A DNA stretch of 64,000 bases from Blastococcus saxobsidens DD2 (GTDB taxonomy: Bacteria; Actinomycetota; Actinomycetes; Mycobacteriales; Geodermatophilaceae). Of this stretch, positions 15,222 to 50,469 are shown in pieces; position 1 is the stretch's first letter, and every line of letters starts with the position of its first letter. Below the pieces are notes generated by a model, which was given only the letters and a program-made list of their open reading frames with translations, did not search any database and had not been told where the DNA came from. Location of the stretch: positions 1,529,541-1,593,540 of the forward strand of contig NC_016943.1 in NCBI RefSeq assembly GCF_000284015.1, written 5' to 3'. The position numbers and the translations under genes were made by a program.

Positions 15222-16382
<1,161 letters not shown>

Positions 16383-16387
16383 CCGCC

Positions 16388-16924
16388 GTGCCCGTCGAGG
16401 TGTCCAACGAGTCCGAGATCGCCGTGGACGAGGCCGAGCTGGCCGGCATCTGCCGGTTCGTCCTCGGCGAGATGGAGATCAACCCGATGGCGGAGCTGTC
16501 CGTGCTCTGCGTCGACGTCGACTACATGAGCAGCCTGCACGAGCGGTGGATGGGCGAGAAGGGACCCACCGACGTGCTGGCCTTCCCCATGGACGAGTTC
16601 GACACCGGGCGGCCCGACGACCCCGAGCCCGGCCCCGCGCTGCTCGGCGACATCGTGCTGTGCCCCGCGGTCGCCGTCCGGCAGGCCCGCGCCGCCGGCC
16701 ACACGATGGACGACGAACTCGTGCTGCTCGCCACGCACGGGGTGCTCCACCTCCTGGGCTACGACCACATGGAGCCCGACGAGGAGAAGGAGATGTTCGG
16801 CCTCCAGTCGACGCTCATCGACGCCTGGCGCGCGGCGCCCCGCGAACCGGTGACCGGCGCCCCGGCCGCACGAGCCGCGGCACCGGGCGCGCCGGCCGGG
16901 GGTCGGGAGACCGGGTCCCGATGA
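16388..16924 (+). CDS. ybeY: Endoribonuclease/rRNA maturation factor YbeY
   Basis: YbeY is a metal-dependent RNase involved in 16S rRNA 3' maturation and ribosome quality control. The 178-residue product contains the signature [17 protein letters not shown] with the three zinc-binding His residues. GTG 16388 begins [17 protein letters not shown], the family start, six bases after the phoH stop. An Ala/Pro-rich tail of about 25 residues is extra. The stop overlaps the next gene as ATGA. Confidence 0.95.
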
Positions 16925-18279: not shown

Positions 18280-18285
18280 CGCCTC

Positions 18286-18618
18286 GTGGCTGACCTGGAT
18301 CCCGAGGACGCGAAGCTCGTCACCCTGGCCCGCTCGGCGCGCGGCCGCACCGGCGCGGCGGAGGGGGCTGCGGTGCGCGACACCGACGGCCGCACTTACG
18401 TCGCGGCCAGCGTCGCCCTGCCGTCGCTGCAGCTGTCGGCGTTGCAGGCCGCCGTCGCCGCCGCCGTCTCCAGCGGGGTGGAGGGCCTGGAGGCCGCGGT
18501 CGTGGTCTCGGTCGCCGACGCGGTGGAGCAGGAGGGCCTGGCCGCGGTCCACGACCTGGCGCCGGGCGCGCCGGTGCACCTCGCCGGCCCCGACGGGGCG
18601 CTGCGCACCACCGTCTAA
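18286..18618 (+). CDS. Cytidine deaminase-like fold protein without zinc ligands
   Basis: This 110-residue protein occupies the place of Rv2365c in the conserved phoH-ybeY-CNNM-x-era order. The sequence has the cytidine deaminase fold pattern (AAVRDTDGRTYVAASVALPSLQLSALQAAVAAA). It lacks the catalytic His/Cys-Ala-Glu and Pro-Cys-X2-Cys motifs, so deaminase activity is not expected. GTG 18286 follows the CNNM stop by six bases. Function unknown. Confidence 0.85.
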   Translation: MADLDPEDAKLVTLARSARGRTGAAEGAAVRDTDGRTYVAASVALPSLQLSALQAAVAAAVSSGVEGLEAAVVVSVADAVEQEGLAAVHDLAPGAPVHLAGPDGALRTTV

Positions 18619-33959: not shown

Positions 33960-34032
33960 TCCCCCGTAGCTCAATTGGCAGAGCATGCGACTGTTAATCG
34001 CAGGGTTACTGGTTCAAGTCCAGTCGGGGGAG
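33960..34032 (+). tRNA. tRNA-Asn (anticodon GTT)
   Basis: A complete cloverleaf of 73 bases has acceptor TCCCCCG/CGGGGGA, D-stem GCTC/GAGC, anticodon stem TGCGA/TCGCA with loop CTGTTAA (anticodon GTT), T-stem ACTGG/CCAGT with loop TTCAAGT, and discriminator G. CCA is not encoded. It is the boundary between core genome and the mobile region, with an integrase gene pointing at its 3' end, so it probably serves as an attachment site. Confidence 0.97.
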
Positions 34033-34243
34033 CAAAGCCGCAGATCACCGGCCTGTGGAGCTGTGTCGGGGCGATAAACTTTTGCTGCGACACATCACAA
34101 ACTCACCACCTAAGAGTTCGGCGGCGGGTATGGCTGGTCATGTCAGCCCACGTCCGCGGGCCGCCTTGTGCGGAGACGGCGGGGTCATACGTGCCGGCGA
34201 GGGGCGGTGCGCCGCACGACTTGCGCGCCGTGCAGCCTGATGA

Positions 34244-34430
34244 TCAGAAGCTGCGGTGCAGTGCATCAGCCGCTTCGGGGCTGGCCGTGCCGCGGCCGAG
34301 GTAGACGTCCTGGGTCAGGCTGGGACGGCTGTGCCCGAGGTGGTCGGCGATCTGGCGTGCGGAGAGACCGGCATCGTCGAGACGGGTCGCCACGGTTTTG
34401 CGAAACGTGTGCGAGGTGACCCAAGGAAAG
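34244..34430 (-). pseudogene. int: C-terminal fragment of a tyrosine integrase, cut off by IS256-family insertion
   Basis: On the minus strand this reads TSHTFRKTVATRLDDAGL, then QIADHLGHSRPSLTQDVYLGRG. These are the conserved H-x-F-R-K, L-G-H and catalytic Tyr motifs of tyrosine recombinases. The stop is at 34244. The N-terminal part is at 35894-36859 on the other side of the insertion. Joining the two across one copy of the 10-bp duplication restores an uninterrupted 380-residue frame. The gene points at the tRNA-Asn 3' end, as integrases at tRNA att sites often do. Confidence 0.9.
34421..34430. repeat. Target-site duplication, left copy
   Basis: CCAAGGAAAG borders the left end of the insertion sequence and recurs at 35894-35903. 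The IS256 family normally makes 8-9 bp duplications, so one or two of the ten bases may match by chance. Confidence 0.85.
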
Positions 34431-35893
34431 AGGATGTCCCGAGTTCCGTAGAACTTCGGTGGCGGCCCGTTGTGCGTCAGGCTGCGACGACCTCCTCATC
34501 ATGCACGGCGGGTGTGACAGTTCCGGTGATCTCGGCGTCGAGCGCGGCGCGCAGCTTCGCCAGGTGCAGGTGGCCGTTGACCCGGCGGAACTGCTTGCCG
34601 GCCTCGACCATGCCGGCGGCGCACCAGCGCAGGGCCATCTGCCCGTCCCGCCAGCGCTTGACGTTGCGGGCGTGATCACGACAGATGGAGATCATCGACT
34701 CGATCGCGTTGGTCGAGCGCAGCGTGCGGGCCAGCGTGGGCGGCACCCCCAGGCGCAGCACGGTCAGCGTCTCGTGCAGGCCTTCGCGCAGGCTGGCAGC
34801 CGCGCTCGGGTGGGTCTTGTCCAGCTCCCGGGCCAGCCCGGTCAGCGCCGCCTCGGCCTCTAGCGCCGAGTCGGCGTGGTAGGCCGCGCGCATCTTTGTG
34901 CCGACCGGGCCGCGTAGCCGCTGCGGTAGTCGGTCCTGAACGTTTCGGATCTTGTGCAATTGGCAGCGCTGGATCACCGGGTGGTCGAAGACGTCGACCA
35001 CGGCCTTGCGCAGCGCCTTCGCCCCGTCGATGCCGACCAGGATCGGCCGGCTCACGTCCAGCCCCCGATCGCGCAGGCCGACCAGCAGGTCGGTGACCAC
35101 CGTGGCGTTCTCCGTCGCCCCCTCGACCAGGGCGAGGGGGTGCTTGACCCCCTCGGAGTCGATGCCCAGCGCGACGACGCAGCAGGATTCGCCGAAGTGC
35201 ACCCCGTCGACCATCAGCGCGACCAGGTCCAATGCGGACAGGTCCGCGGCAAGCAGCTCGGCCAGGGCGGTCTCGGTCATCGCCACGAACTTCCGGGACA
35301 CCGCCGACTTGCTCGTCGCCTTCGCCGCCGCGCTGACGTGGTCGCCGACCGGTTCCAGGCCAACCCGGTAGCGGCGGGTGGACAGGCCGGCCAGCATCCG
35401 CTCCATCGCCATCGACCCGAGGATCTCGGTGCCGCTGAACAGCTCGTAGGTGGGCACGGACAGCTCGCCGGAGCCGTCAGCGGCGCGCACCCGCGGACGG
35501 CTCACTGGCACCCGCCGCCCGCCCAGGGTCACCGACCCGCGCTCGGAGCCGTGCCGGACCGCGGTCCGACCGGCATCGTGCTTGCCCTTCGGCCCGGCCA
35601 TCCCGGTCACGTCGGCCTCCATCAGCGCCTGCATCACCTGCAGGCCGGCGCCGACCGCGAGGGCGAGCAGGCCCTCACGCATCGTGCCGGCGATCTCGGC
35701 CATCGCCACATTCACCCGCTCCGGCACGACGACTCCGTCGCCGGTAGGCGTGTCGATCTTGTCCTTCTGGTACTTCTTGGTCACGGCGGTCCCCTGCTCG
35801 AAGTGGTGTCTTGGCGGACGCCCAACACCTACCTCACGGCCGGTGCGGGCGGGGGACCGGCCACCTCAACTTCTACGAGACCCGGGACAACCT
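34431..35893 (-). mobile_element. IS256-family insertion sequence, complete copy
   Basis: This element is 1463 bp and is bounded by a direct repeat. The terminal inverted repeats are imperfect: the left end starts AGGATGTCCCGAGTTCCGTA and the right end, complemented, starts AGGTTGTCCCGGGTCTCGTA. It contains one transposase gene on the minus strand. It interrupts the integrase gene. A second copy begins at 63440; over the 561 bases available I see one difference (T at 34897, C at 63906). Confidence 0.93.
34477..35784 (-). CDS. IS256-family transposase
   Basis: This DDE transposase of 435 residues is a normal length for the mutator/IS256 family. The catalytic Asp residues lie in LVALMVDGVHFGE and ILVGIDGAKALRKAV, and the Glu in RSTNAIESMISICRDHARNVKRW. 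The family motif VIQRCQLHKIRNVQDRLP is present. The frame is intact from ATG 35784, so the element may be active. Confidence 0.95.
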   Translation of the reverse strand: MTKKYQKDKIDTPTGDGVVVPERVNVAMAEIAGTMREGLLALAVGAGLQVMQALMEADVTGMAGPKGKHDAGRTAVRHGSERGSVTLGGRRVPVSRPRVRAADGSGELSVPTYELFSGTEILGSMAMERMLAGLSTRRYRVGLEPVGDHVSAAAKATSKSAVSRKFVAMTETALAELLAADLSALDLVALMVDGVHFGESCCVVALGIDSEGVKHPLALVEGATENATVVTDLLVGLRDRGLDVSRPILVGIDGAKALRKAVVDVFDHPVIQRCQLHKIRNVQDRLPQRLRGPVGTKMRAAYHADSALEAEAALTGLARELDKTHPSAAASLREGLHETLTVLRLGVPPTLARTLRSTNAIESMISICRDHARNVKRWRDGQMALRWCAAGMVEAGKQFRRVNGHLHLAKLRAALDAEITGTVTPAVHDEEVVAA

Positions 35894-36859
35894 CCAAGGA
35901 AAGCCGGCTCGGTCAAGAGCCTGGCGGAGATCGCCGCTGGTGTTGCTCGGGTCGCGTAGGAGACCCTTCCTGCTGGGGAAGACCACCTGCGGGTGGGATG
36001 CCCCGGGCGGATCGTTCAGGCGGCGCCGGAGGAGGTCGACCGTCTGCGGCGGCAGCGCGATGGTGCGCCGGCCGGCGTCGGACTTCGGTCGTTCCTGTAT
36101 GAAGAGACCGCGTAGCCGATCGCGGGTCACGGTGCCGCCCACCGACAGTGTGCTCGCAGCGGAGTCGATGTCGGTCGGGCGGACGGCGCAGGCCTCGCCG
36201 ATGCGCAGGCCGGTGCCGAGCATGAAGGCGACCAGGTCGGGGAGGTCCTGGAGCACCGCGGCAGGGTCATCGACCAGCCGTGCCAGCAGTTGGCGCGTCT
36301 CCTCGACGGTGAGCGACCGCGGGCGGCGGGAGCCGCGTGTCGCTCGGCGGGCCGGGGTCTCGCGGACGGGGTTCATCGGAAGCAGACCATGCCGGACAGC
36401 AAGACCGAGAATGCCCGAGACGACGCTTCGGGTGGACTTCGCGGCTGCGGGTCCGTGTGCCTGGCTGACCGAGGTCAGCAGACGGTCGATGACGGGAACG
36501 GTGACTTCGCGCAAGCGGAGCTCACCGAGCCTCGGAAGGACGTAGGACTCGCTGACGAAGCGGTACAGACGCTTCGTGCCGGCTGCCAGATCGCTGTCGT
36601 CGATGTCGGCCAGCCACTGGGCGGCCACGACGCTCAGGCGACTGTCGACCGGCACCGGGGGAGTGGCGCCCGTGGCACGGTCGCGCAGTGCCTCCCGCAG
36701 TCGTCGCTCCGCCTGCGCTCGGGTATCGCCGTAGCGGGTGACCAGTCGACGACGACCGTCGAGGTCGCGGAAGTACGTGCGGGCGCCGACGCGGTGCTTG
36801 CCGGACTCGAGGAAGTGGATCTGGCCGAAGGTCCCCACCGGCAGTGGCGGCCTTCCCAT
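35873..36859 (-). pseudogene. int: N-terminal part of the split tyrosine integrase
   Basis: This carries the first 322 codons of a tyrosine recombinase. The N-terminal arm/AP2-like region includes GQIHFLESGKHRVGARTYFRDLDGRRRLVTRYG. The core-binding SAM-like domain lies at about 75-165. The catalytic domain starts with FMLGTGLRIGEACAVRPTDID, which holds the first catalytic Arg. ATG 36859 has AGGAGG seven to eight bases upstream. After the FPW codons the frame runs into the IS end and stops at 35873. The His-Arg-His-Tyr half is at 34244-34430. As it stands the product lacks its nucleophile and should be inactive. Confidence 0.92.
35894..35903. repeat. Target-site duplication, right copy
   Basis: CCAAGGAAAG repeats the bases 34421-34430 and encodes, on the minus strand, the FPW junction of the integrase. 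Confidence 0.85.
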
Positions 36860-37129
36860 GTCAGCTCCTCCTCTCAAGTTCGCTCGGGCTCGGTGCCCGA
36901 CCGTAAGGATCATCACGGCCGTCGGCATGCCGGGGCGCGAAGCTGCGCGTCTGGGGACAGCACGCCGGCCTGTGCATGACGGGTTGCGCCTAAAGCCGGG
37001 TGCAGGCTCCAGTCGTCCTCCGGTCGTGGGGAGAGCGGCCGTGGTGGGCTTGATCTCGAAACTGTCGGTGCCGATGGGCATAGTGGAGCCGTTCACCCCG
37101 GTGGACCATGATCGAGGGAGGGGAGTGGC

Positions 37130-38433: not shown

Positions 38434-38771
38434 CGCGACTCCTTGGATCTCGGGGACTTGCTCCGGCGTTCGTCCGGGAACGCCCCCTTATGATCGCCCG
38501 GCAACAGTCAGCGCTGCCGCACCGGTCGTCCCGGATGCCGCCGGCGCGCTGGACCGGATGCGTCTGCGGGAACGTGGGCGCCGTGACGTGCTTTACGTCA
38601 GCGGTCACCGCAGCCGCGGTCTCCAGCTCGTGAATCGTTCGTCGTCTTCTCTCATGTGGGCGGCTCCCGGGCGGGGGGCGCAAGCGAGGGGCAGGCGCTC
38701 GGGTGCGTGCCATCGTGTCCCGCGTCCGTTGCTGGTGGCTCCTGCACCGCGGCTCCTACTACGGTTCCGCT
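38434..38771. other. Intergenic region without recognisable gene
   Basis: About 340 bases lie between the dehydrogenase stump and the first iclR gene. No coding frame has family-like sequence or a good start. The last 60 bases should hold the iclR promoter, but I see no clear boxes. Confidence 0.5.
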
Positions 38772-39554
38772 ATGCAAGACAGTCGCGTAGCCCGGGTCAA
38801 TTCCGTGCAGTCCGTCGATCGAGCTGTATCGATCCTTCAGGTTCTTGCGCGCCGTGGCAGCGTCGGCGTCACCGAGATCGCCGGCGAGCTGGGCATGCAC
38901 AAGTCGACCGCCTTTCGGCTCCTCGCCACCCTGGAGGCCCGCGGGCTGGTCGAGCAGAACGCCGAGCGCGGGAGGTATCAGCTCGGCTACGGGGTGGTGC
39001 AGTTGGCTGCGGGAGCGACGAAGTCCGCGGGACTCGCCCTGCTCGGACTCCCCATCTGCCGAGAGTTGGCGGAGACGGTGGGCGAGACGGTGAACGTGGC
39101 GGTGCACGACGGACGGTGGGTCGTCAGCGTCGACCAGGTGATCGGCGCCGCGGCCGTGACGACCGTGAACTGGGTGGGCCAGCGCAGCCCCATGCACGCC
39201 ACGTCGGCCGGCAAGGTGTTCCTGGCGCACATGTCGCCGGACCAGCTGGACGCCGCGATCGCCGAGGACCTGGAGAGGTACACCCCGCACACCGTGGTGG
39301 ACCAGGACGTCCTCAGGCATCAGCTCGCGATCGTCCGCGAACGGGGCTTCGCCTCTACCAGCGAGGAGCACGAGATGGGCCTGGCAGCCATCGCGGCTCC
39401 GGTCTGCTCCATAGACGGCGGTGTGGTCGCAGCCGTCACCGTCTCCGGGCCCACGTTCAGGGTCAACGAGGACACGATGCCCGGCCTGGCCAAGCACGTG
39501 ATCGCGGCGGCCGGCGAGATCTCGCAGCGCAACGGCCATCCCAAGCGCGGCTGA
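38772..39554 (+). CDS. IclR-family transcriptional regulator
   Basis: This 260-residue regulator has an N-terminal winged helix (SVQSVDRAVSILQVLARRGSVGVTEIAGELGMHKSTAFRLLATLEARGLVEQ). The C-terminal effector domain shows typical IclR segments (VGQRSPMHATSAGKVFLAHM, TVVDQDVLRHQLAIVRERGFASTSEEHEMGLAAIAAPV). ATG 38772 begins next to the HTH; a longer in-frame start at 38703 is less likely. It converges with the oxygenase reductase gene and probably controls the osmolyte cluster to its right. Confidence 0.93.
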   Translation: MQDSRVARVNSVQSVDRAVSILQVLARRGSVGVTEIAGELGMHKSTAFRLLATLEARGLVEQNAERGRYQLGYGVVQLAAGATKSAGLALLGLPICRELAETVGETVNVAVHDGRWVVSVDQVIGAAAVTTVNWVGQRSPMHATSAGKVFLAHMSPDQLDAAIAEDLERYTPHTVVDQDVLRHQLAIVRERGFASTSEEHEMGLAAIAAPVCSIDGGVVAAVTVSGPTFRVNEDTMPGLAKHVIAAAGEISQRNGHPKRG

Positions 39555-39626: not shown

Positions 39627-40814
39627 TCAGGCGTCGATCCGCAGGTCACTCAGCGGCTTCGAGCAGCAGATGAGCAGCTTGTCCTGCGCGATCTCACGCG
39701 GCCGGATCCCGCCCTGGTGCTGCATGTCCACGGTGCCGGAGAGGATGGTCGTCTTGCATGTGCCACACATGCCCTGACCGCAGGACGACGGAGGGGTCAA
39801 GCCGGCTCCGTACGCCGCGTCGAGGACGTTCTCGTCGGCACCGCAGCGGAACGTGCGACCGCTACGGACGAACTCGACGGAGAAGGTCGCCATCTGCGCT
39901 CCAGCACTCGGCGGCTGGGATTCGTCCCCACCATGGGTCTCGACGGGCGCGGAGCGGTCCTCGCCCGTCAGATCCTCGAACGAGAAGGACTCCTCGTGGT
40001 ACCGCGCCATGTCGAAGCCGGCCGCGACGAGCATCCGGCGGACCGCGGCCATGTACGGGGAGGGTCCGCAGCAGAACACGTCGCGCTCGTGGAGGTCAGG
40101 CGCGAGCACCCGCAACATCTCGTCGCTCAGGAAGCCCCGCAGGCCGACCCACGGCTCCCGAGGGGAGTCCCGTTCGCAGACGTGGCCGACGCGGATCGTC
40201 GGCGCCACGCTCGCCATCACGTCGAGCTCGCGCTGGAAGATGATGTCGGACGGGGTCCGCGCACTGTGCACGAAGAGGATGTCGATGTCCGAGCCCAGGT
40301 CGTACAGGGTGCGCGTCATGGACATCAGCGGGGTGATGCCGCTGCCGGCCGACAGGAACAGGTACTTGCCTGCGGGATGGCGGGCGGCCGAGAAGCGCCC
40401 GAACGGTCCGTCGGCCGTGATGCGCTGCCCAGGGCGCATGGTGTCGTGCAACCAGTTGGACACGAGTCCTCCGGGCTGCCGCTTGACCGTGATGCCGATC
40501 AGATGGGGCCGCGTGGGCGGCGTGGAGATGGTGTAGCACCGGTCCACCTCGCGGCCGCCGATCTGCAGGCGCAGGGTGATGAACTGGCCGGGGTCGAAGT
40601 GAAACAGCGCAGGGTGCTCGGACTCGAAGAGGAACGTCTTCACGTCGTGGGTGATGTCCAGGACCCGGCGGCACACCAGCGGGTAGTTGTCCGACTCTCC
40701 CCAGACCGGGAGTGCGGACGGGTGGGCCGTCATGCCGACGTGTACCTCAGCGGGGCACGGCACCGGGACAGCGTCCAGTACCGCCACGGAACTGGTGGGC
40801 GCGGTCATCGTCAA
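39627..40814 (-). CDS. Rieske oxygenase reductase component (GbcB type)
   Basis: This NAD(P)H-dependent ferredoxin reductase feeds electrons to the neighbouring Rieske oxygenase. The FAD domain has DRCYTIST (FAD) and LFLSAGSGITPLMSM, with the NAD-binding segment ending FCCGPSPYMAAVRRML. A C-terminal plant-type [2Fe-2S] domain has Cys345, Cys350, Cys353 and Cys383 (CGQGMCGTC, then LLICC). The product has 395 residues. The architecture equals GbcB of glycine betaine and stachydrine demethylases. A Pro/Ala-rich N-terminal extension of about 40 residues precedes the FAD domain. It is the last gene of the minus-strand group M24-Rieske-iclR-reductase. Confidence 0.9.
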   Translation of the reverse strand: MTMTAPTSSVAVLDAVPVPCPAEVHVGMTAHPSALPVWGESDNYPLVCRRVLDITHDVKTFLFESEHPALFHFDPGQFITLRLQIGGREVDRCYTISTPPTRPHLIGITVKRQPGGLVSNWLHDTMRPGQRITADGPFGRFSAARHPAGKYLFLSAGSGITPLMSMTRTLYDLGSDIDILFVHSARTPSDIIFQRELDVMASVAPTIRVGHVCERDSPREPWVGLRGFLSDEMLRVLAPDLHERDVFCCGPSPYMAAVRRMLVAAGFDMARYHEESFSFEDLTGEDRSAPVETHGGDESQPPSAGAQMATFSVEFVRSGRTFRCGADENVLDAAYGAGLTPPSSCGQGMCGTCKTTILSGTVDMQHQGGIRPREIAQDKLLICCSKPLSDLRIDA

Positions 40815-40925: not shown

Positions 40926-41783
40926 TCAGAGGGCCCGGGCGCGATCCCGCCCCCGCTGGAGTGCTGACTCGATGCGGCCGGCCGCGAGCCCCACCTGGTC
41001 GGCCGCCTGTGTGGCCCGGTGCCCGGACAGCCGCTGGGTGGGGCCGCTGACGGTCAGGACGCCGACGAGCTCCTCCGCCGGCCCGTAGATGCCCGTCGCG
41101 ACGCCCGACAAGCCCTCTTCCGCCTCGTCGATGCAGAGGGCGTGCCCGCGGTCGCGTACGCGGCGGAGGTCCACGCGCAGCTCGGTGGCCGTCGCGATCG
41201 TCGACGGGGTGAGACGTTCGAGCGGCTCGCGGAGGAAGTGCTCGAGCTGCTCGTCGTCGAAGGTGGCGAGCAGCACCTTCCCGCTCGCGCTCGCGTGCAG
41301 GGGGAACCGCTGCCCGACCCACGACTGCGGGCGAAGATGATGGGGTGCATCGACCTGGTGCACGAGGTCCAGCCCTCCGTCGGGGGCCACCACACTCAGC
41401 GTCCCGGTCTCCTTGACCGCGGCCACGAGATCGCCGAGGACCGGCCGGGCTGCCTCCAGGAGCACGAGTGATGCGTCGCTGCCCCGCGCGAGGCGCAGCA
41501 GTTCCGGCCCGATCAGCACCCGGTCGTCCCCCGCGACCCGCAGCAGGAAGCCCTCCTGTTCCAGTGTCTGGATCATCCGCAGCGCCGTGGCCCGGGGGAG
41601 CCCCGCCGCCCGAGCCAGCGACGAGACGTTCGCCCCGGGGTCGTCAGCGGTGGCGCGGAGGAGTGTGATCGCCTTCCTGACCGACTGGTTCAGCTTGGCT
41701 CCGTCGTCGCCAGCCGTCGCACGGCCACGGGGTACCGGCCCCAGCAGGGCCGACGGCCTCGCCCGGCCTTCCGTCTCGTCCAT
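40926..41783 (-). CDS. IclR-family transcriptional regulator
   Basis: This second IclR regulator has 285 residues: a basic N-terminal arm, winged helix (SVRKAITLLRATADDPGANVSSLARAAGLPRATALRMIQTLEQEGFLLR) and effector domain (VGQRFPLHASASGKVLLATF, RDRGHALCIDEAEEGLSGVATGIYG). ATG 41783 has AGAGG five bases upstream, better than GTG 41789. It lies between the oxygenase and reductase genes, so it is likely a local, pathway-specific regulator. Confidence 0.93.
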   Translation of the reverse strand: MDETEGRARPSALLGPVPRGRATAGDDGAKLNQSVRKAITLLRATADDPGANVSSLARAAGLPRATALRMIQTLEQEGFLLRVAGDDRVLIGPELLRLARGSDASLVLLEAARPVLGDLVAAVKETGTLSVVAPDGGLDLVHQVDAPHHLRPQSWVGQRFPLHASASGKVLLATFDDEQLEHFLREPLERLTPSTIATATELRVDLRRVRDRGHALCIDEAEEGLSGVATGIYGPAEELVGVLTVSGPTQRLSGHRATQAADQVGLAAGRIESALQRGRDRARAL

Positions 41784-41824
41784 GCCCACCTCTCCGGTTC
41801 TGCGGTCTCGATCGTCGACCTGGC

Positions 41825-43090
41825 CTAGCGGGACAGGTGAGCGGCCAGCCGGGAGATGTACCAGTTGACGAAGGCCTCGACGTCACCTTCGACCGTCGAG
41901 TACGGGCCCGGCTGGTAGCCGGGGTCCGTGACGCCCTTCTGGGTGCGCGCCACCAGGGTCCCGTCCTGCTCGTTGGTCGCCTGCCAGACCTTGGTCAGGG
42001 TCGCCACGTCATAGTCCACGCCCTCCACCGCGTCCGGGTGCACCAGCCAGGTGGTACGCAGGAAGGTGGTGCTCGGGCCGAGCGGGAGCACCGAGAACAC
42101 GACCGTGTGGTCGGCCAGCAGGTGGAACCACGAGTTCGGTTGCATGTGGATTGACAAGTCGCCGAACCGGTCCGTGGTCATGGATCCCATGAGCCTGCTG
42201 CACAGCGATTCGCCGTCGGTGTTGAACGACTTGCCCGCGCCGTCGAGCGGGGCATGGGAGAGCTGGAATCCGGTGGCGCGGGTGTCCAGTTCCCGCAGCC
42301 CCTCGACGGGGAAGCCCCGCCGGACGCACGCCGTCTGGAGATCCGCGGCGGCCTTGGTGAAGCGCTCGAAGACCGGGCGCAGGCGTGGCGGAACGTCCTC
42401 AGCGGTGTAGCCGAACAAGGGGAAATAGGCGCTCAGCAGCTCGGGGTGCCCGTCGCAGTGGTAGCACTCACGGTTGTTCTCCATGACGAGCTTCCAGTTG
42501 CCGCTCTCCACGAGGTCGACCTGATGCGCCACCTTGGCCTGGCGCAGCCCGTACGGGGTGAGGAAGTGTTCGACGCGGGCGGCCACCTCGTCGAAATCGG
42601 CCGGCGGATCGTCCGCGAGACACAGGAAGACGAGACCTCCGACGCTGCGGACGTGGACCGGCTTGAGGCTGAAACAGCTGCGGTCGAACGTTGCCGGCTG
42701 GTTGTCGGCGTGCATCAGGCGTCCGTCGACTCCGTACGTCCAGTGGTGGTACGGGCAGACCAGGTTGCCGACACTGCCCTGCGGCTCGTCGAGGAGACGC
42801 GATCCCCGGTGCCGGCACACGTTGTGGAAGGCCCGTACGTCTTCGTCGTCGTCCCGCACGACGATGACCGAGTAGCGGCCGACCTCGACGGTGACGTAGT
42901 CACCGGGTTCGGGCAGTTCGGCCTCCGTGGCGGCGAAGATCCAGTGCCTGGCGAAGATGGCGTCCACGTCCAGGTCGAAGAACTCCTGGCTCGTGTAGAA
43001 GGGCGCCTCCAGGCTGTATCCAGGAACGCGAGCGTTCACCAGATCGATCAAGCCGTGGGCATCCGTCGGGCGCTCGAGCTGCACCGTCAT
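41825..43090 (-). CDS. Rieske non-heme iron oxygenase alpha subunit (GbcA/stachydrine-demethylase type)
   Basis: This 421-residue oxygenase probably catalyses oxidative N-demethylation of a quaternary amine. The Rieske [2Fe-2S] ligands are Cys92-X-His94 and Cys112-X2-His115 (CRHRG, CPYHHWTYG). The catalytic domain contains NWKLVMENNRECYHCDGHPELL, which holds iron-ligand His residues and the bridging acidic residue, as in GbcA and Stc2. ATG 43090 has GGAGG six bases upstream. Two palindromes lie 100-150 bases upstream. With the reductase and the DgcA-like flavoprotein in the same cluster, glycine betaine or proline betaine are the likeliest substrates; carnitine or DMSP-like compounds cannot be excluded. 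Confidence 0.9.
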   Translation of the reverse strand: MTVQLERPTDAHGLIDLVNARVPGYSLEAPFYTSQEFFDLDVDAIFARHWIFAATEAELPEPGDYVTVEVGRYSVIVVRDDDEDVRAFHNVCRHRGSRLLDEPQGSVGNLVCPYHHWTYGVDGRLMHADNQPATFDRSCFSLKPVHVRSVGGLVFLCLADDPPADFDEVAARVEHFLTPYGLRQAKVAHQVDLVESGNWKLVMENNRECYHCDGHPELLSAYFPLFGYTAEDVPPRLRPVFERFTKAAADLQTACVRRGFPVEGLRELDTRATGFQLSHAPLDGAGKSFNTDGESLCSRLMGSMTTDRFGDLSIHMQPNSWFHLLADHTVVFSVLPLGPSTTFLRTTWLVHPDAVEGVDYDVATLTKVWQATNEQDGTLVARTQKGVTDPGYQPGPYSTVEGDVEAFVNWYISRLAAHLSR

Positions 43091-43190
43091 GGTGCGCCTC
43101 CAGGGATGGCGGGAACGGCTCGCCGGCGGGGACGAGCCGTCAGTGCGGGCACGGCTCCAGGTGCTCGGCGCGACGAATGCCCAGGCCGTG

Positions 43191-43224
43191 ATCATCTAGT
43201 GGGCGGGGGTGTCCACTAGATGAT
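43191..43224. promoter_or_regulatory. Large perfect operator-like dyad upstream of the Rieske gene
   Basis: ATCATCTAGTGG and its exact complement CCACTAGATGAT are separated by 10 bases. The sequence is AT-richer than the surroundings and sits in the promoter region of the Rieske gene, so it is a probable binding site for one of the cluster's regulators (IclR or GntR type). Confidence 0.65.
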
Positions 43225-43280: not shown

Positions 43281-44558
43281 TCAGGCGCCGGACAGCTGGT
43301 CATCGTGCGGCGCACGGCTGAGCTGCTCCACGCCCTCGTCCGTCACCAGGATCTGCTCCTCCAGCTTGAGTCCCTCGTCATCCCCTTCTGCGCCCATGTA
43401 GGCCTCGACGCTGAAGACCATCCCGGCCTCGATCTCGCCGGCGTGGTGGTCCTCGAAGCGGATGACCGGGTACTCGTCGCTGAGGCCGCTGCCGTGAGCG
43501 ATGAACGGATACCGCTGGGCGCGATAGGCCGGCGGAAGGCGGCGGCCGAGCTTCTGCCCCACGTCGTCGAAGGCGGCCCCGGGCCTCAGCTCGCCGATGA
43601 TCTCGCTCAGGAAGGTCTCTGCATCGGCGTAGAGCCGTAGTTGCCGCGCGGTGGGCTTCGTGCTGCCGACTAGGTACGTGCGGGACACATCGGCGAGGTA
43701 GCCGGCCGGGCCGATGAGGTCGGTGTCGAACGACACCAGGTCGCCGGATCGGATGCGTCTGTCCCCGGCCTCGCGGAACCAGGGGTTCGTCCGGGGTCCT
43801 GACGACAGCAAGCGCGCTTCCACGTACTCGCCACCGAGCGCGAACGCGCGGCCGGTGAACTCGCCCCACGCCTCGTTCTCCGTCATACCGGGCCGGAGGA
43901 CGTGGTGCAGGTGGGTGACCGCCTCGTCGCAGGCGCTGACCGATCGCCGGATGAGCTCGATCTCCGCCGCACCCTTTCTGGCGCGCGCCTCCTCCATGGC
44001 GAGCTGTGCCGGCCGGAGGTGGAGGCCGGCCTCCTGCAGGGCCAGGAACCCATACGTGTCCAGTCGGTCCACGCCGATCCGGGCGTCCCGGATCGCCCAC
44101 TCCTGCAGCACGCGGGCCACCTCGGCGGCGAATCGCGCGGCTCGGTCATGGGCCCGATCCCCGGACCCGAAGGCGGACCAACTCGTCGCCGTCCGCGTCT
44201 CGAGATGCGGATACGGCGACACGAGGTCGGCCGGCGCGGAGGCGTACTCCCACAGGACCGGCTGGCCCTCGGCCGGTACCAGCATGTAGCGGTCGATCAT
44301 GTGCAGCGTCCAGACCGGCATGGTGGACGTCCCTGTCACGTACCTGATGTTGACGGGATCGGCCAGCAGCGCGGCTGCCAGATCATGCCGGTGCAGCGAG
44401 TCGCGGGTCCGCGCGATCGCATGCTCGACGGCCCCTCGGACGAGCGTGACGTCGACCTCAAGTCGCGTCTCCCGCGTCTGGCCCGAGGCGACCGACCGAG
44501 GAGTGTCGTACCTCGGTCCGCCGGACGTGCGCGACGCCGTTCCCGTCACCCTCGCCAT
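43281..44558 (-). CDS. M24-fold enzyme, DddP-like (candidate DMSP lyase)
   Basis: This 425-residue enzyme has the pita-bread fold. Metal-ligand positions are Asp278 and Asp280 (SFDTDLIGP), Asp290 (ADVSRTY), His355 (AHGSGLSDEYP), Glu385 (SVEAYMG) and Glu400 (LKLEEQILV). The spacing follows DddP (literature numbering D295, D297, D307, H371, E406, E421) and the proposed DddP base D377 corresponds to Asp361. The stretch EARLLSSGPRTNPWF is also DddP-like. M24 relatives also include creatinase and Xaa-Pro peptidases, so the activity needs assay. ATG 44558 has GGAG eight bases upstream. It is flanked by a BCCT transporter and a Rieske demethylase, consistent with an osmolyte substrate. Confidence 0.82.
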   Translation of the reverse strand: MARVTGTASRTSGGPRYDTPRSVASGQTRETRLEVDVTLVRGAVEHAIARTRDSLHRHDLAAALLADPVNIRYVTGTSTMPVWTLHMIDRYMLVPAEGQPVLWEYASAPADLVSPYPHLETRTATSWSAFGSGDRAHDRAARFAAEVARVLQEWAIRDARIGVDRLDTYGFLALQEAGLHLRPAQLAMEEARARKGAAEIELIRRSVSACDEAVTHLHHVLRPGMTENEAWGEFTGRAFALGGEYVEARLLSSGPRTNPWFREAGDRRIRSGDLVSFDTDLIGPAGYLADVSRTYLVGSTKPTARQLRLYADAETFLSEIIGELRPGAAFDDVGQKLGRRLPPAYRAQRYPFIAHGSGLSDEYPVIRFEDHHAGEIEAGMVFSVEAYMGAEGDDEGLKLEEQILVTDEGVEQLSRAPHDDQLSGA

Positions 44559-44604: not shown

Positions 44605-44674
44605 ACTAGCGACGTCGAGGGGCACCGTCCAGCCGGGACGTTGCCCCTCGACGCGCACCGGCGGAGGTCTCGGA

Positions 44675-46486
44675 TCAGCTGGACGGCTGAGGCTGCTTCG
44701 ACTGGCGGGCGTCAGCGGCCACGCCGTTGCCTGCACCGTCCGGGGCCGGTTGCTGGACGACGTTCGCCGGCAGCTCCTGGACGGTGTTCGGTCGCATCTC
44801 GGCGATCACGGTGCGCACCCCCGGCGGAACGGTGGTCACCACCGGCTCGTCGCGCAGCTGCTTGACCAGGCTGTAGCAGACGCCGAGCATGACGACCAGG
44901 AACGGCACCCCGAACACGATCACGGTGGTCTGGATCGCGTCCAGGCCTCCGGCGAGCAGCAGGGCGATCGCGACCGCGCCGATCATCGATCCCCAGGTGA
45001 CGACCAGCCAGGTCCGGGGGTGGAGCGATCCGCCCTGCGAGAGCATGCCGAGCACGAGGGACGCGGCGTCCGCTCCGGCGACGTAGAAGAGCATGATCAG
45101 GACGACCACCAGCACCGCGACCACCGTCGAGAGCGGCATCGCATCGAGCATCGTGAAGAGCGTGTTCTCCACGCCACTGCTCAGCGACGCAGCCATGTCG
45201 GTGACTCCGGTGAGCTCGAACCGGATGGCGGTGCCACCCATCACGACGAACCACACGGTGCTGACGAGTGTCGGCACGATCAACACGCAGATCACGAACT
45301 CGCGGATGGTCCGACCTCGCGAGATCCGCGCCATGAAGGTGCCCACGAACGGCGCCCACGACAGCCACCACGCCCAGTAGAAGATCGTCCAGCCGGCCAG
45401 CCATTCGCCGCCGCCGGACGCGCCCGTGCGGAACGACATGGGCACGACCTGAGCCAGGTAGCCGCCGAAGGACTCGACCAACGTGTTCAGCAGGAAGATC
45501 GTGGGTCCGAAGGCGAAGACGAAAATCAGCAAGCCGACGGCCAACCCGGCGTTGATGTTGGCCATCCATTTGACGCCCCGCTCCGTCCCGCTGACCGCCG
45601 AGAGCACGAAGAGCGCGGTCAGCACGACGATGACCACGATGGAGACGGTGTTGCTGGTGGGTGCGTCGAACACCCGTGTCAGCCCGCTGTTGATCTGGAT
45701 CGCACCGAGACCGAGCGACGTGGCGGCTCCGAAGGTGGTGATGAAGAGTCCGAAGATGTCGACGGCCCGGCGGGCGGGGTGCGACGGGTCCTTCCGCGGG
45801 AACACGATAGAGCTGAGCAGGTTGGGCAGGCCCTTCCGGAACGTCGCGTAGGCCAGGGCGAGGCCGACGACGCCGTAGAGCGCCCACGGGTGCAGTCCCC
45901 AGTGGAAGATCGTGTACTCGAGACCGAGCTCCGCGGACTCGGGGGTCCCGGGTTCGGCCATGTCCATCGGCGGCGTGAGCAGGTGGGACAGCGGCTCGGC
46001 GACGCCCCAGAAGATAAGCCCGATCCCCATCCCGGTGGCGAACATCATGGAGATCCACGAGAAGGTGCTGAACTCGGGCCGTTCGTCGTCGCGACCGAGC
46101 CGGATCCGCCCGTACCGCGAGAGCGCGAGCATGAGCATCAGCAGCACGAAACCGGCGGTGACGGCCACGTACACCCAGCCGGTGGCGTCGATCATCCGGT
46201 CCAGGACCGCCGACGCCGTCGCGGCCAGCGAGGTGGGCGAGATGACGCCCCAGAGCACGAAGGCCAGGGTGAGGGCCATCCCGGCGATGAAGACGGTTCT
46301 GTCGACCGGCCGGTCCACGTCGGCGGCCCGCGGATGCGTCCGGTCGTCATTGGGTGCGGCGTGGACGAAGCGCCGGGTGACCACGAACGTCTCCTCGACC
46401 GCCACGTCACCGTCGGCGCTTCCGGGAGACAGTCGGTGGTCACCAGCACCGGCGGGGGGCTCGGGCTGGGGATCTTCGGGGCTCAT
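44675..46486 (-). CDS. BCCT-family betaine/choline/carnitine-type transporter
   Basis: This secondary transporter for quaternary ammonium or sulfonium osmolytes has 603 residues and about 12 transmembrane helices. Family motifs are MMFATGMGIGLIFWGVAEP (the Gly-rich Na-site region of TM3) and the Trp-rich TM8 signature TIFYWAWWLSWAPFVGTFMARISRGRTIREF. It has an N-terminal cytoplasmic extension of about 65 residues and a Pro/Gln-rich tail. ATG 46486 has GAGAGG upstream. It probably imports the substrate of the adjacent enzymes. Confidence 0.93.
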   Translation of the reverse strand: MSPEDPQPEPPAGAGDHRLSPGSADGDVAVEETFVVTRRFVHAAPNDDRTHPRAADVDRPVDRTVFIAGMALTLAFVLWGVISPTSLAATASAVLDRMIDATGWVYVAVTAGFVLLMLMLALSRYGRIRLGRDDERPEFSTFSWISMMFATGMGIGLIFWGVAEPLSHLLTPPMDMAEPGTPESAELGLEYTIFHWGLHPWALYGVVGLALAYATFRKGLPNLLSSIVFPRKDPSHPARRAVDIFGLFITTFGAATSLGLGAIQINSGLTRVFDAPTSNTVSIVVIVVLTALFVLSAVSGTERGVKWMANINAGLAVGLLIFVFAFGPTIFLLNTLVESFGGYLAQVVPMSFRTGASGGGEWLAGWTIFYWAWWLSWAPFVGTFMARISRGRTIREFVICVLIVPTLVSTVWFVVMGGTAIRFELTGVTDMAASLSSGVENTLFTMLDAMPLSTVVAVLVVVLIMLFYVAGADAASLVLGMLSQGGSLHPRTWLVVTWGSMIGAVAIALLLAGGLDAIQTTVIVFGVPFLVVMLGVCYSLVKQLRDEPVVTTVPPGVRTVIAEMRPNTVQELPANVVQQPAPDGAGNGVAADARQSKQPQPSS

Positions 46487-46531
46487 GGCACACCTCTCGT
46501 TGCGCACAGCGCTTCGGTATCGCCACACGAA

Positions 46532-46689: not shown

Positions 46690-48270
46690 TCAGGTCCGCG
46701 AACCGGGCAGCTTTCCCCCGGTCGGCCGGGGCCCGGGGGCAGGGAGCTGTCCGAGCATGTACGCGGCGGCGTCGTCGATCTTGATGCGCCACCGGTGCAC
46801 CGCTGCGTCGGCGTCCCCGGAGTCGATGGCCTCGAAGAGGGCGCGGTCGTCACGCACCATGGCATCGATCGGATAGGCGTAATCGAGCCCCATCACGGCG
46901 ATGAACATGCGCAGGTGGTCGGCCAGGACCTCCAGCATGGGCGCGATGCGCACCAGCCCGGAGGCGTGGGCGAGGGCGTCCTGGAACGCGATGTCCGCGT
47001 CGCCGGTCCGGTGCACGTTTCCGGTGACGGCGCACCGCTCCAGCGCGTCCAGCGACTCCGCGACCGACTGCCGCTTCTGTGGGGACCACCGGACGGCGGC
47101 CCGGATCACCAGGGCTCCCAGCGCGCGCCGCGCGGCGTACGTCTCGACGACGTCGTTCGTCGTCAGGACGGGGACCACCGCCGCGTGCCCCGTCGTGATC
47201 GTGAGCAGCCCGTCCCGCTCCAGGAGCCGCATTGCCGTCCTCACCTGGGCTCGCGTCGTCCGCAGCCGACCCGACAGGTACCTCTCGGTGACGCGGTCTC
47301 CACCGGCGAGCCGACCTTCCGCGATGCCCTGCCGGATCGTCAGGACGACCTCGTCGGCGAGAGCTCGTTCCGGCCCCAGGTGACGGACCGCGGCTCGCAT
47401 CGCGGGGCCGCGGCTGCTTCCGGCCGGCGTGGGGGGACGCACCCATGTGAACGCGTGGCGGGGCGTGCGCGCCCACGTGCGCAGCCCGGCCTCCAGCTGC
47501 AGTGCCGCGGCGGGAGAGAGTAGCGGCCCCCGATCGAGCAGGAAAGGGAAGAGGGACAGCCACTCGTGGGCGTCCCGGCACACCCCGCCAACCGACACCT
47601 CGGCCGGTACGGGAGCCGCGTCGGAGGCGAGAGCCATCACGGTTGCGTCGGGGTCCGCCGCATTCCTCACCTCCTCCCAGAACGCCCGGGGGGCGGCGGC
47701 GGGAGTCGCCGGAAGCTCCGGGCGGACGAGATCGGCGGCGAGGAGAGTGCGCAGTGACCGGTGCACCGCCGGGTCGCCCCGTGTCGGCGGGTCAGGGGTC
47801 TCCTGCCGCGTGACGGGTGTGAGCTGGAAGGCCACGACGGCGGCCTCCGACGTCACCAGGAGGCCGAGGATCGCCGGCTGCCGCCCGATCATCGCGGCGG
47901 TCAGGTCGTCGCCGAGCGGGGTGCCGGACCGCATCTCCTCCCATGCGCGTGCCACGAAGGACTGGCTGACGCCCAGGGCCTCCGCGATCGAGCGACTGGA
48001 CCACTTGGTGGTGGGCATCCAGAGCGGCGCGGTGAGAGCGGCCCGCCTCAGCTCCTGCGTCGACCGGCGGCGGTGAGCGGGCCGGCTCAGCTGCGCCGCG
48101 CCGCCGGTGCGGTAGCGCTGAGCCCACTTGGCGGCGGTCTGCCGGGTGACGCCGTGTTCCCTGGCGGCGCGCGTGGGCCCGAGTGACAACACGTCCCGCA
48201 CCAGTCGTGCCCGCAGACGTACCGCCTCGTCGGCGTCTCGCGACAGGTCCTCGAGCTGGGGATCGCTCAC
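46690..48270 (-). CDS. Two-HTH regulator: transposase-like HTH fused to GntR/FCD regulator
   Basis: This is a 526-residue fusion. Residues about 10-80 form a helix-turn-helix of the IS630/IS481-type (DVLSLGPTRAAREHGVTRQTAAKWAQRYRTGG); a second HTH-like stretch follows (SIAEALGVSQSFVARAWEEM). The middle about 120-310 is unassigned. The C-terminal part is a FadR-type regulator: winged helix (EVVLTIRQGIAEGRLAGGDRVTERYLSGRLRTTRAQVRTAMRLLERDGLL) and FCD effector domain (YAARRALGALVIRAAV, IAFQDALAHASG). GTG 48270 has GAGGAG just upstream. It is divergent to the DgcA-like gene and likely controls the cluster. No closely similar architecture comes to mind. Confidence 0.8.
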   Translation of the reverse strand: MSDPQLEDLSRDADEAVRLRARLVRDVLSLGPTRAAREHGVTRQTAAKWAQRYRTGGAAQLSRPAHRRRSTQELRRAALTAPLWMPTTKWSSRSIAEALGVSQSFVARAWEEMRSGTPLGDDLTAAMIGRQPAILGLLVTSEAAVVAFQLTPVTRQETPDPPTRGDPAVHRSLRTLLAADLVRPELPATPAAAPRAFWEEVRNAADPDATVMALASDAAPVPAEVSVGGVCRDAHEWLSLFPFLLDRGPLLSPAAALQLEAGLRTWARTPRHAFTWVRPPTPAGSSRGPAMRAAVRHLGPERALADEVVLTIRQGIAEGRLAGGDRVTERYLSGRLRTTRAQVRTAMRLLERDGLLTITTGHAAVVPVLTTNDVVETYAARRALGALVIRAAVRWSPQKRQSVAESLDALERCAVTGNVHRTGDADIAFQDALAHASGLVRIAPMLEVLADHLRMFIAVMGLDYAYPIDAMVRDDRALFEAIDSGDADAAVHRWRIKIDDAAAYMLGQLPAPGPRPTGGKLPGSRT

Positions 48271-48435
48271 CTGGCTCCTCGCACGTGGGTGCACAGTCCG
48301 ACTCATCGACTCGAACGCGGTGTGAGTCCGGGCACGGTACTACCGGACCACCGGCCGCCGCTGCACTCTTCGTCGGGACGGGACCGAGGAAGGCCGTGAA
48401 GACGCCACCGGCCGCCGCTGCTCATGGAGGCACCC

Positions 48436-50469
48436 ATGCAGTCCGCTGACCCGCTGATGAGTCCGTTCACGCTGAAGAACATCACGCTTCGCAACCGGAT
48501 CGTCAGCACCTCTCACGAACCCGCGTACAGCGAGGACGGGCTGCCGGGGGACCGGTACCGGGCCTACCACGTCGAGAAAGCGCGAGGTGGGGTCGGACTG
48601 ACCATGATCGGTGGCAGCGCCATCGTCAGCCCGGAGAGCGCACCTGCCTTCGGCAACCTCCAGCTGTTCAAGGACGAAGCGGTCCCGCTGCTCCGTCGCC
48701 TCACGGACGAGGTGCACGGGCACGGGGCTGCCGTCATGACCCAGCTGACCCATCTCGGTCACCGGACCAGCAACTACACCGACGACTGGCTGCCGGCTCT
48801 GTCCGTCAGTGCTCTGCGCGAATCGGCGCACCGGGCGTTCACGCGGCCGGCGGACAGGTGGGACCTCGAGCGCATCGTCCGCGATTTCGCCGACACGGCC
48901 GTGCGATGCCAGGAAGGAGGACTGGACGGCATCGAGCTCATGGCGTACGGGCACCTGCTGGACGCCTTCTGGACGCCGGTCCGGAACCGTCGCGACGACG
49001 AGTACGGCGGATCGTTCGAGAACCGCATGCGCTTCCCGCTCCAGGTGGTCCGTGCCATCCGCGCCGCCGTCGGCGAGGAGTTCGTCGTCGGCGTCCGCAT
49101 GACCTTCGATGAGGGCCGCAGCGACGGTCTGCGGACCGACGAAGCCCTGCGGATCGCGCACGCGCTGACCGCCGCAGGCATCGACTTCTTCAGCGTGATC
49201 AAGGGTTTTATGGATACCGACGCCGGCCTGGCGCGGATGATCCCGCCGATGGGCACGCCGGCAGCACCACACCTCGCGTTCACCGGCTGGGTGAAGGAGA
49301 ACGTCGACGTACCGGTCATGCACGCGGCCAAGATCGGGGATGTGGCCACCGCGCGGTACGCGATCACGGAGGGCCTCGTCGACCTGGTCGGGATGACCCG
49401 GGCGTTGATGGCGGACCCGCATCTGCCGAACAAGGTCGCCGCACGGCAGACCGACCGGATCCGCCCCTGTGTCGGCGCGAACATGTGCATCGACAGCATC
49501 TACAGCTCCGGGGCCGCCTACTGCGTCCACAATCCGGCGACCGGCCGGGAACTGCGCCTCCCGCAGACGGTCCGCAAGGCGGCCGAGCCGAAGAAGGTCG
49601 CCGTCGTCGGCGGGGGACCCGCAGGGCTGGAGGCCGCTCGGACCCTCGCCGAACGCGGGCACGAGGTCGTCCTCTTAGAGGCGAATCCGAGTCTGGGCGG
49701 CCAGATCGCCCTCGCGGCGAAGTCCCCGCGGCGACGTGACCTGGTCGGGATCGTGGACTGGCGGATCGCCGAGTGCAAACGGCTCGGTGTCGACCTCGAG
49801 CTCAACCACTTCGTCGAACCGGACGAACTGACCCACGGGGACTTCCGCGTCATCGTCGTCGCCACCGGTGGCCTGCCGGACGTGGACGTCGCCGAGGGCA
49901 GCCACCTGGCGATCGACACCTGGGACGTCATGTCCGGAGCGGTCAAGCCCACCGGCGACGTGCTGGTCTACGACGACCACGGCGGCCACCAGGCACTCGA
50001 CGCCATCGAGATCCTGGCGCCGGCCGCGGCATCGGTCGGGCTGATCACGCCCGAGCGGACCATCTCACCCGACGTCGGTGCGCTGACGATGGCCGGGTAC
50101 CTGCAGATGCTGGCCGAGCACGACGTGACCATGACGCCTGCTCATCGTCTGATCCGTGTCGAGAGATCCGACGGACGACTCAAGGCGACGTTCGCCGTGG
50201 ACGGCGCCCGCCGCGCGATCGAGCGGTACGCCGACACGATCGTCATCGAGCACGGAACGCTACCTGTGACCGACCTCTACGACGCACTTGTGGACGCGTC
50301 GATCAACAGCGGCGAGATCGACACCAGGGAGCTCGTGACGCTGTCGCCTCAGTCGCCGATCCACAACCAAGACGGACGGTTCCGCCTGTATCGCGTGGGC
50401 GACGCGGTGAGCAGCCGTAACATCCACGCCGCCGTGCTGGACTCCTTCCGCCTCTGCAGTGCGATCTGA
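48436..50469 (+). CDS. DgcA / N-methylproline-demethylase-type flavoprotein (OYE + NAD-binding)
   Basis: This 677-residue member of the TMADH/2,4-dienoyl-CoA reductase family has an FMN TIM barrel (MSPFTLKNITLRNRIVSTSHEP, DGIELMAYGHLLDAFWTP, RMTFDEGRSDGLRTDEAL), an Fe-S region and a C-terminal FAD/NAD domain (KKVAVVGGGPAGLEAARTLAERGHEVVLLE). Fe-S Cys residues are 345, 351 and 363. The fourth TMADH Cys position is Ala348 (CVGANMC), a substitution I recall in the dimethylglycine/N-methylproline demethylase branch. Predicted role: the second demethylation (dimethylglycine to sarcosine, or N-methylproline to proline). ATG 48436 has GGAGG five bases upstream. A rare TTA codon occurs at 49675. Confidence 0.87.
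   Translation: MQSADPLMSPFTLKNITLRNRIVSTSHEPAYSEDGLPGDRYRAYHVEKARGGVGLTMIGGSAIVSPESAPAFGNLQLFKDEAVPLLRRLTDEVHGHGAAVMTQLTHLGHRTSNYTDDWLPALSVSALRESAHRAFTRPADRWDLERIVRDFADTAVRCQEGGLDGIELMAYGHLLDAFWTPVRNRRDDEYGGSFENRMRFPLQVVRAIRAAVGEEFVVGVRMTFDEGRSDGLRTDEALRIAHALTAAGIDFFSVIKGFMDTDAGLARMIPPMGTPAAPHLAFTGWVKENVDVPVMHAAKIGDVATARYAITEGLVDLVGMTRALMADPHLPNKVAARQTDRIRPCVGANMCIDSIYSSGAAYCVHNPATGRELRLPQTVRKAAEPKKVAVVGGGPAGLEAARTLAERGHEVVLLEANPSLGGQIALAAKSPRRRDLVGIVDWRIAECKRLGVDLELNHFVEPDELTHGDFRVIVVATGGLPDVDVAEGSHLAIDTWDVMSGAVKPTGDVLVYDDHGGHQALDAIEILAPAAASVGLITPERTISPDVGALTMAGYLQMLAEHDVTMTPAHRLIRVERSDGRLKATFAVDGARRAIERYADTIVIEHGTLPVTDLYDALVDASINSGEIDTRELVTLSPQSPIHNQDGRFRLYRVGDAVSSRNIHAAVLDSFRLCSAI

Follow-up and report, generated by a model that had tools for sequence, protein, structure and literature searches.

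In Blastococcus saxobsidens DD2, a DddP-like protein of the M24 fold is encoded amid genes of a predicted betaine N-demethylation pathway, within the stretch of 64,000 nucleotides analysed here (the window). The reading that we favour, at roughly even odds (about 0.5), sees in the protein a DddP-like lyase acting on an onium compound of the betaine type as part of a betaine-degradation island. The evidence supports DddP-like chemistry on a carboxylate that carries an onium group, and as physiological substrate a nitrogen betaine, or one of the intermediates formed when it is N-demethylated, is more probable than dimethylsulfoniopropionate (DMSP).

The gene encodes 425 residues, carries a GAGGAG stretch just 5' of its ATG, and its product matches Peptidase_M24 (E 6.5e-32) and Creatinase_N in Pfam. 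Among NCBIfam models, NF043017 for DddP matches best (E 2.6e-86); however, the score of 290 bits does not reach the curated cut-off of 600 bits, which proteins of Oceanisphaera, Oceanimonas, Psychrobacter and P. shirazensis pass with 617-629 bits. Nine further NCBIfam models listed (DoeA/EutD, peptidases and methionyl aminopeptidase) score 30-50 bits, the DoeA/EutD models reaching 39-50 bits against cut-offs of 575-613. A phmmer search of the PDB returned RlDddP at E 9.9e-66 and RdDddP at 1.9e-64, compared with 1.4e-15 for the best prolidase; with E values near 1e-65, a chance match to DddP was rejected. The dN/dS of the gene against four relatives is 0.19-0.31, indicating that it is under purifying selection. 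The closest named relative, from Pseudonocardia halophobica, is 69% identical (a comparison from which the records closest to the window may be missing), and the protein is thus actinobacterial, as a prior sequence-only reading had described it.

In a first tree (118 rows, four of them misread), the window protein paired with the P. halophobica protein (L035) outside a 101-row group that included DddP. In a second tree, built with a mixture model from 81 of 127 rows, the window protein and five Pseudonocardiaceae proteins formed one clade (100%; hereafter the query clade), which is joined on a long branch by Actinomycetospora cinnamomea L051 (96%). DddP proper is a 17-row group (99%) to which belong the two DddPs of known crystal structure and, besides these, Oceanisphaera L032 (626 bits) as well as Oceanimonas L057 (629 bits, whole gene). 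This group is nested in a 60-row clade (99%) outside which the window protein branches, and within which DddP is only one tip group among many lineages. The 77 DddP and DddP-like rows are split from four other M24 rows with 100% SH-aLRT, the nearest stand-ins for a named creatinase, DoeA or full prolidase being three M24 proteins of the same genome, two of them as outgroup; Oceanimonas DddP2 and the fungal DddPs are likewise not among the rows of either tree. By this placement, and with a sixth metal ligand, the window protein is assigned to a wider DddP-like M24 superfamily. Forcing the query clade and DddP together lowered the log-likelihood by 65 and was rejected, with a p-AU of 0.00217 that is optimistic because the DddP group was named after the first tree. 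The sequence-only reading had set clustering with creatinases or prolidases against clustering with DddP: the window protein does stand with the DddP-like rows and apart from the M24 stand-ins, but it lies outside the DddP clade. Plain DddP membership, which that reading implied, was rejected on score (290 of 600 bits), tree position (outside the 60-row clade) and AU test (p-AU 0.002).

Of 396 genomes of the phylum searched with a profile, 21 gave a DddP-like match at E 1e-40, and none of these genomes held a DddP-like match above the 600-bit cut-off. A protein search of the order found the protein in 10 of 397 genomes, six of which belong to the same family (B. saxobsidens itself and five at 70-81% identity, one of them over half the length), and in 1 of 23 genomes of the genus. 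Six actinobacterial proteins (L006, L007, L008, L009, L010 and L050) are much nearer to DddP than the window protein, at 428-458 bits, and these closer relatives would be better first candidates for an actinobacterial DMSP lyase. In both of the genomes G086 and G263, a closer copy (L010 and L011) exists alongside a distant one (L027 and L029).

The DddP-type catalytic set proposed from the sequence alone was borne out by a 128-row alignment, in which the RlDddP metal ligands D295/D297/D307/H371/E406/E421 correspond to D278/D280/D290/H355/E385/E400 of the window protein. DddP W95 (which we take to be its onium-binding Trp), Y366 and the proposed base D377 correspond to W83, Y350 and D361, the last of these pairings having also been proposed before. 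The ligands are separated by 2, 10, 65, 30 and 15 positions in the window protein and by 2, 10, 64, 35 and 15 in DddP; the one extra residue claimed before the His is therefore correct, but the first Glu is preceded by five fewer residues, not four. As described in the available excerpts of two DddP studies, metal-coordinating residues number five in M24 peptidases and six in DddP (PMC5395565), DddP Asp297 has no counterpart in methionine aminopeptidases (PMC4108388), a Trp and a Tyr of DddP bind the DMSP sulfur while an Asp takes the proton (PMC5395565, PMC4108388), and Tyr366 and Asp377 are assigned the onium-binding and base roles (PMC4108388). The position of D280 is Gly in the Deinococcus radiodurans prolidase and in three aligned M24 proteins of the same genome (of four others), and prolidase 5cdl has Gly at this position and His at the positions of Phe261 and Asp361. 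M24 peptidases carry two His beside the metal ligands, with a catalytic role, and the creatinase fold has a His at the position that is Phe261 in the window protein. In the window protein, Phe261 and Asp361 occupy the places of these two peptidase His; both His are kept in two M24 proteins of the same genome, and a third (L005) has Phe and Asp.

The set W95/D295/D297/D307/Y366/H371/D377/E406/E421 is identical in all six intact query-clade proteins. Across 85 further DddP and DddP-like rows, D297 is kept in 85, Y366 in 83, D377 in 82 and W95 in 82. Since the catalytic residues are near-constant across the wider family, they mark that family and do not specify DMSP. The exceptions include the f16 proteins (D307, D377 and E421 replaced in 7 of 8), L126/L127 (Y366 to Phe, D377 to Val) and L051 (W95 to Ala). 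In a lineage from actinobacterial genomes of 2.2-3.4 Mb (L019, L020, L022-L026), Cys, Gly and Glu take the place of D307, E421 and the base D377, and its chemistry is possibly changed. Agreement at 99 DddP-conserved positions is 68-70% in the query clade, compared with 76-93% in five lineages nearer to DddP, 70-71% in L126/L127, and 51-60% in the L051, f19 and f16 lineages.

An AlphaFold2 model built from the window protein and 33 relatives had a mean pLDDT of 84.7 and a pTM of 0.84, residues 1-32 and 82-86 being poor. Foldseek placed four DddP entries on top (TMq 0.84-0.86), followed at ranks 5-20 by M24 peptidases (0.66-0.70). With VIA-align 2, the model aligned to RlDddP 4rzy with Z 43.4 (rmsd 2.6, 391 residues aligned), compared with Z 34.5 for the best Xaa-Pro dipeptidase (rmsd 2.6, 363 aligned), 33.4 for DoeA (rmsd 3.1, 365 aligned) and 33.2 for creatinase (rmsd 3.0, 361 aligned). 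The structural comparison suggested earlier thus put DddP nearest, ahead of creatinase and prolidase. Prolidase identity was rejected on Phe261 and Asp361 at the His positions, on D280 and on the fold ranking, and creatinase or DoeA identity on the DoeA scores (39-50 bits against 575-613), Phe261 at the His position and the fold ranking.

Table 1. Features of the M24 locus in the window (positions of the window; a dot marks features given without a strand).
Feature	Position	Strand	Basis or remark
tRNA-Asn, Mutator-family transposase and phage-type integrase frame, left of block	33960-37096		
Mutator-family transposase	34477-35784		
Phage-type integrase frame	35873-37096		
Second IclR-type regulator, cluster edge	38703..39554	+	
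Flavin/ferredoxin reductase, GbcB type	39627..40814	-	NF058606 393 bits (cut-off 500); Pfam FAD_binding_6, NAD_binding_1, Fer2
IclR-type regulator between Rieske and reductase genes	40926..41789	-	Relative in 7/7 query-clade loci
Rieske oxygenase, glycine betaine/stachydrine demethylase type	41825..43195	-	NF058607 GbcA 429 bits (cut-off 670); PDB 4qup E 2e-105, 3vca 3e-105
Perfect 10-nt inverted repeat CATCTAGTGG..CCACTAGATG, M24-Rieske gap	43193..43222	.	Read in sequence
DddP-like M24 gene (the finding)	43281..44558	-	425 aa
Codons of D278, D280, D290, Y350, H355, D361, E385, E400	43359..43727	-	Alignment and arithmetic from start codon
W83 codon (= DddP W95, N-terminal domain)	44310..44312	-	Alignment; model weak, residues 82-86 pLDDT <50
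18-nt inverted repeat, 94% complementary, between BCCT and M24 genes	44613..44653	.	
BCCT transporter	44675..46528	-	Closest solved relative BetP E 2e-123; DddT lower, E 3e-66
GntR/FCD-type regulator with added N-terminal helix-turn-helix region	46690..48306	-	
681-aa flavoprotein, 2,4-dienoyl-CoA reductase/histamine dehydrogenase/trimethylamine dehydrogenase kind	48424..50469	+	Divergent from cluster; solved relatives

Judged by its neighbours, a Rieske oxygenase, a reductase, a flavoprotein and IclR regulators (Table 1), the M24 gene lies within a betaine N-demethylation cluster, a setting that the sequence-only reading had overlooked. The BCCT transporter gene noticed beside it in that reading lies directly upstream and on the same strand, with 116 bases in between. 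The two solved relatives of the Rieske oxygenase, 4qup and 3vca, are labelled 'Monoxygenase; demethylase' and 'Ring-hydroxylating dioxygenase' in the PDB table, and we take both to be stachydrine demethylases. The window copy is the sole strong GbcA-like match in its genome, two others scoring 171 and 120 bits. A perfect inverted repeat in the gap between the M24 and Rieske genes overlaps the first ATG of the longest Rieske frame; this is a sign that the true Rieske start probably lies further in. The repeat is a possible operator, and its two matches in the window are not above chance (38 of 100 shuffles). The divergently encoded flavoprotein is possibly a second N-demethylase. In the 538-residue GntR/FCD-type regulator, which is 78-82% conserved in three relatives, the added HTH_23/28/29 region also matches IS481/IS630 transposase models.

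Between about 39.6 and 50.47 kb lies a block that runs collinear with the loci L150, L151 and L154 at 82-89% DNA identity, and the likeness ends at 50,471 in all three. Its GC content is 69.5%, compared with 73.6% for the window up to 34 kb, 69.1% at 34-38.6 kb and 72.1% beyond the block. A transposase, an integrase frame and a tRNA-Asn gene stand to its left, so the block may be an acquired island. A search for tRNA genes beside the cluster in six relatives found none.

All seven query-clade loci combine the M24 gene with Rieske, reductase and IclR genes, in two arrangements. BCCT, GntR and OYE genes complete the first (window, L150, L151 and L154), while the second (L035, L152 and L153) has proline-racemase-family genes and gave no BCCT or OYE match. 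OpuA-type ABC transporter parts occur in L035 and L153, and L035 further encodes a fusion of a DHDPS-family domain with an aldehyde dehydrogenase (15974-18397), a combination that would suit the final steps of hydroxyproline breakdown. In one locus, L154/L125 (G732), the M24 frame is truncated, and the Rieske, BCCT, GntR, IclR, reductase and OYE genes remain, 78-90% identical to those of the window. This truncation indicates that the enzyme may be dispensable for the core betaine pathway, and it fits a separate substrate, such as DMSP, equally well.

Gene neighbourhoods were counted for the 79 of 115 loci with at least 12 kb of context (36 had less and were dropped), leaving aside the outgroup-like L117, L118, L157 and L158 and double entries; wide flanks were taken for 20 of the 24 matches listed in the phylum profile search. 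N-demethylation genes (Rieske, MttB, DMGDH or OYE type) were found within 8 kb of 38 of 62 non-DddP loci, 3 of 17 DddP-clade loci and 1 of 20 control stretches (Fisher p 0.002), in counts that are not phylogenetically independent, with reference genes drawn from the loci's own surroundings and controls from seven genomes only. When the loci that supplied the reference genes were removed, the counts were 32/56 versus 3/16 (p 0.0098), and they were 26/50 versus 3/16 (p 0.023) when the other six query-clade loci were removed as well. No N-demethylation gene of the kinds sought was found near 24 of the 62 non-DddP loci. In a literature search, no link between DddP-like M24 proteins and Rieske betaine clusters appeared among the matches listed, as far as the available excerpts of those sources extend.

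A medium-chain (MDR) reductase gene lies near the M24 gene at 10 of 79 loci (controls, 0 of 20), including L116 (annotated dddP) and four of the seven query-clade loci; one lies beside the dddP-annotated gene of Paracoccus yeei. The match of this reductase to the acryloyl-CoA reductase model is weak (117-125 bits versus 500). The relatives' MDR gene was not found in the B. saxobsidens genome at E 1e-20, in a search that had no positive control. AcuI (acryloyl-CoA reductase) gave eight matches in this genome, the best at 71 bits and none above the 440-bit cut-off, which was exceeded in 1 of 14 control genomes. On plasmid pMPC6-328K of Pseudomonas sp. MPC6, an isolate from an Antarctic site, an osmolyte island (L115, 160000-205000) encodes an 838-residue CoA transferase, which is the length of DddD, together with BCCT, Fe-alcohol dehydrogenase and MMSDH genes. 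The DddP-like M24 gene of this island lies about 10 kb from the CoA transferase gene, in a Rieske/ALDH/FAD-oxidase cassette.

If the favoured reading is right, the BCCT transporter (or OpuA-type ABC parts, in two relatives) would import a zwitterionic osmolyte, and the neighbouring Rieske and flavin enzymes would N-demethylate the betaine. In the M24 enzyme, the dinuclear metal centre would hold the substrate carboxylate, Trp83 and Tyr350 would hold the positively charged onium group, and Asp361 would abstract the alpha proton, from the carbon adjoining that carboxylate. A beta-elimination, as proposed for DddP in the available excerpts of PMC5395565 and PMC4108388, would then cleave the bond to the leaving group. 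For glycine betaine and proline betaine a chemically sensible elimination of this kind is hard to see, as neither has a leaving group beta to the acidic proton. The proline-racemase-family genes beside three relatives suggest proline-type betaines as the substrate. A nitrogen betaine is favoured because of the changed gene context, the BetP-like transporter, the lack of an AcuI match above the cut-off and the low DddP score; DMSP is kept in consideration because of the intact DMSP-type active site and the loss of the M24 gene in L154.

The foremost alternative, which we consider possible though somewhat unlikely, is that the protein is a true physiological DMSP lyase, the BCCT transporter importing DMSP and the M24 enzyme converting it to DMS and acrylate next to genes for co-occurring betaines. 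All DddP residues of shown or proposed function are present, including the sixth ligand that peptidases lack according to the available part of PMC5395565. Because the same transporters can serve betaine and DMSP, and the two can co-occur, a place among betaine genes is compatible with DMSP as the substrate. The available text of PMC10989825 describes a DddP, 55% identical to Oceanimonas DddP2 (scallop symbiont), that cleaves DMSP and is active in E. coli. For marine Actinobacteria isolates that cleave DMSP, no functional ddd gene is known (PMC6309047), and the degradation genes of DMSP-catabolizing Actinomycetia were still unknown in a 2026 paper (PMC13360808), both in the excerpts available; since the cleavage activity is on record for Actinobacteria while its gene is missing, a complete DddP active site from this phylum lends itself directly to testing. 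The MPC6 relative near a DddD-length CoA transferase with BCCT, Fe-alcohol dehydrogenase and MMSDH genes argues in the same direction, as do the MDR reductases (with their weak acryloyl-CoA reductase matches) of four query-clade loci and P. yeei. However, grouping with DddP is rejected, the protein scores 290 rather than 600 bits, and agreement at the 99 DddP-conserved positions is 68-70%, below the 76-93% of the five nearer lineages. Furthermore, the N-demethylation context is unlike that of most DddP-clade loci, the BCCT transporter is nearer to BetP than to DddT, and the genome gave neither the MDR gene at E 1e-20 (no positive control) nor AcuI above the cut-off.

It is decidedly unlikely that the enzyme instead hydrolyses a C-N bond, in an Xaa-Pro or Xaa-Hyp dipeptide or in a creatine-like or ectoine-like compound, and so feeds (hydroxy)proline or sarcosine into the cluster. 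The M24 fold, with prolidases and DoeA as the next best folds, and the proline-racemase-family, DHDPS and ALDH genes of the L035 arrangement would fit such a role; however, the peptidase His positions are Phe261 and Asp361, the peptidase Gly is Asp280, and the DoeA/EutD models score 39-50 bits against cut-offs of 575-613. RlDddP, which has the same residue set, was inactive on Val-Pro in the available excerpt of PMC5395565. That the gene is vestigial and merely carried along with the betaine island is highly improbable, given the intact active site of the six other copies and a dN/dS of 0.19-0.31 against a single truncated copy in seven loci.

Beyond the preferred reading of a betaine-type onium lyase, a broader and more doubtful proposal is that the DddP-like proteins form an old, widespread family of iron-dependent onium-carboxylate lyases for nitrogen betaines in soil and sea. 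On this view DddP would be one late offshoot of the family, and the window protein would belong to a deep actinobacterial lineage that has retained activity on a nitrogen betaine and liberates an amine in place of the DMS formed by DddP. The DddP catalytic residues recur throughout a large group of M24 proteins, and betaine-demethylation genes lie near more than half of these (38 of 62 non-DddP loci), which bears on the origin of DddP. Residue motifs or loose homology cut-offs may thus overcount dddP in soil and ocean data.

Among known systems, the window protein has the fold, the six ligands, the Trp and Tyr and the base Asp in common with DddP (RlDddP 4rzy/4s00/4s01, RdDddP 4b28; NF043017). 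It differs from DddP in that it is 32-34% identical to it, scores 290 of 600 bits, branches outside DddP, has T79/P81/S360 in place of N91/Q93/C376, and is encoded in a betaine-demethylation context, unlike most DddP-clade loci. This betaine context is shared by other DddP-like M24 proteins of Proteobacteria and Actinobacteria whose genes adjoin betaine genes of the Rieske or MttB/DMGDH type (for example L030, L031, L034, L016/L131 and L051); they mostly keep the catalytic set but are 36-46% identical and form separate lineages. DoeA/EutD and creatinase, which act in the degradation of osmolytes or nitrogen compounds feeding sarcosine pathways, have the same M24 fold, but with a Z lower by 10 and with the first peptidase-type His being Phe in the window protein. 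Prolidase and Xaa-Pro dipeptidase share the fold and five of the six metal ligands with the window protein.
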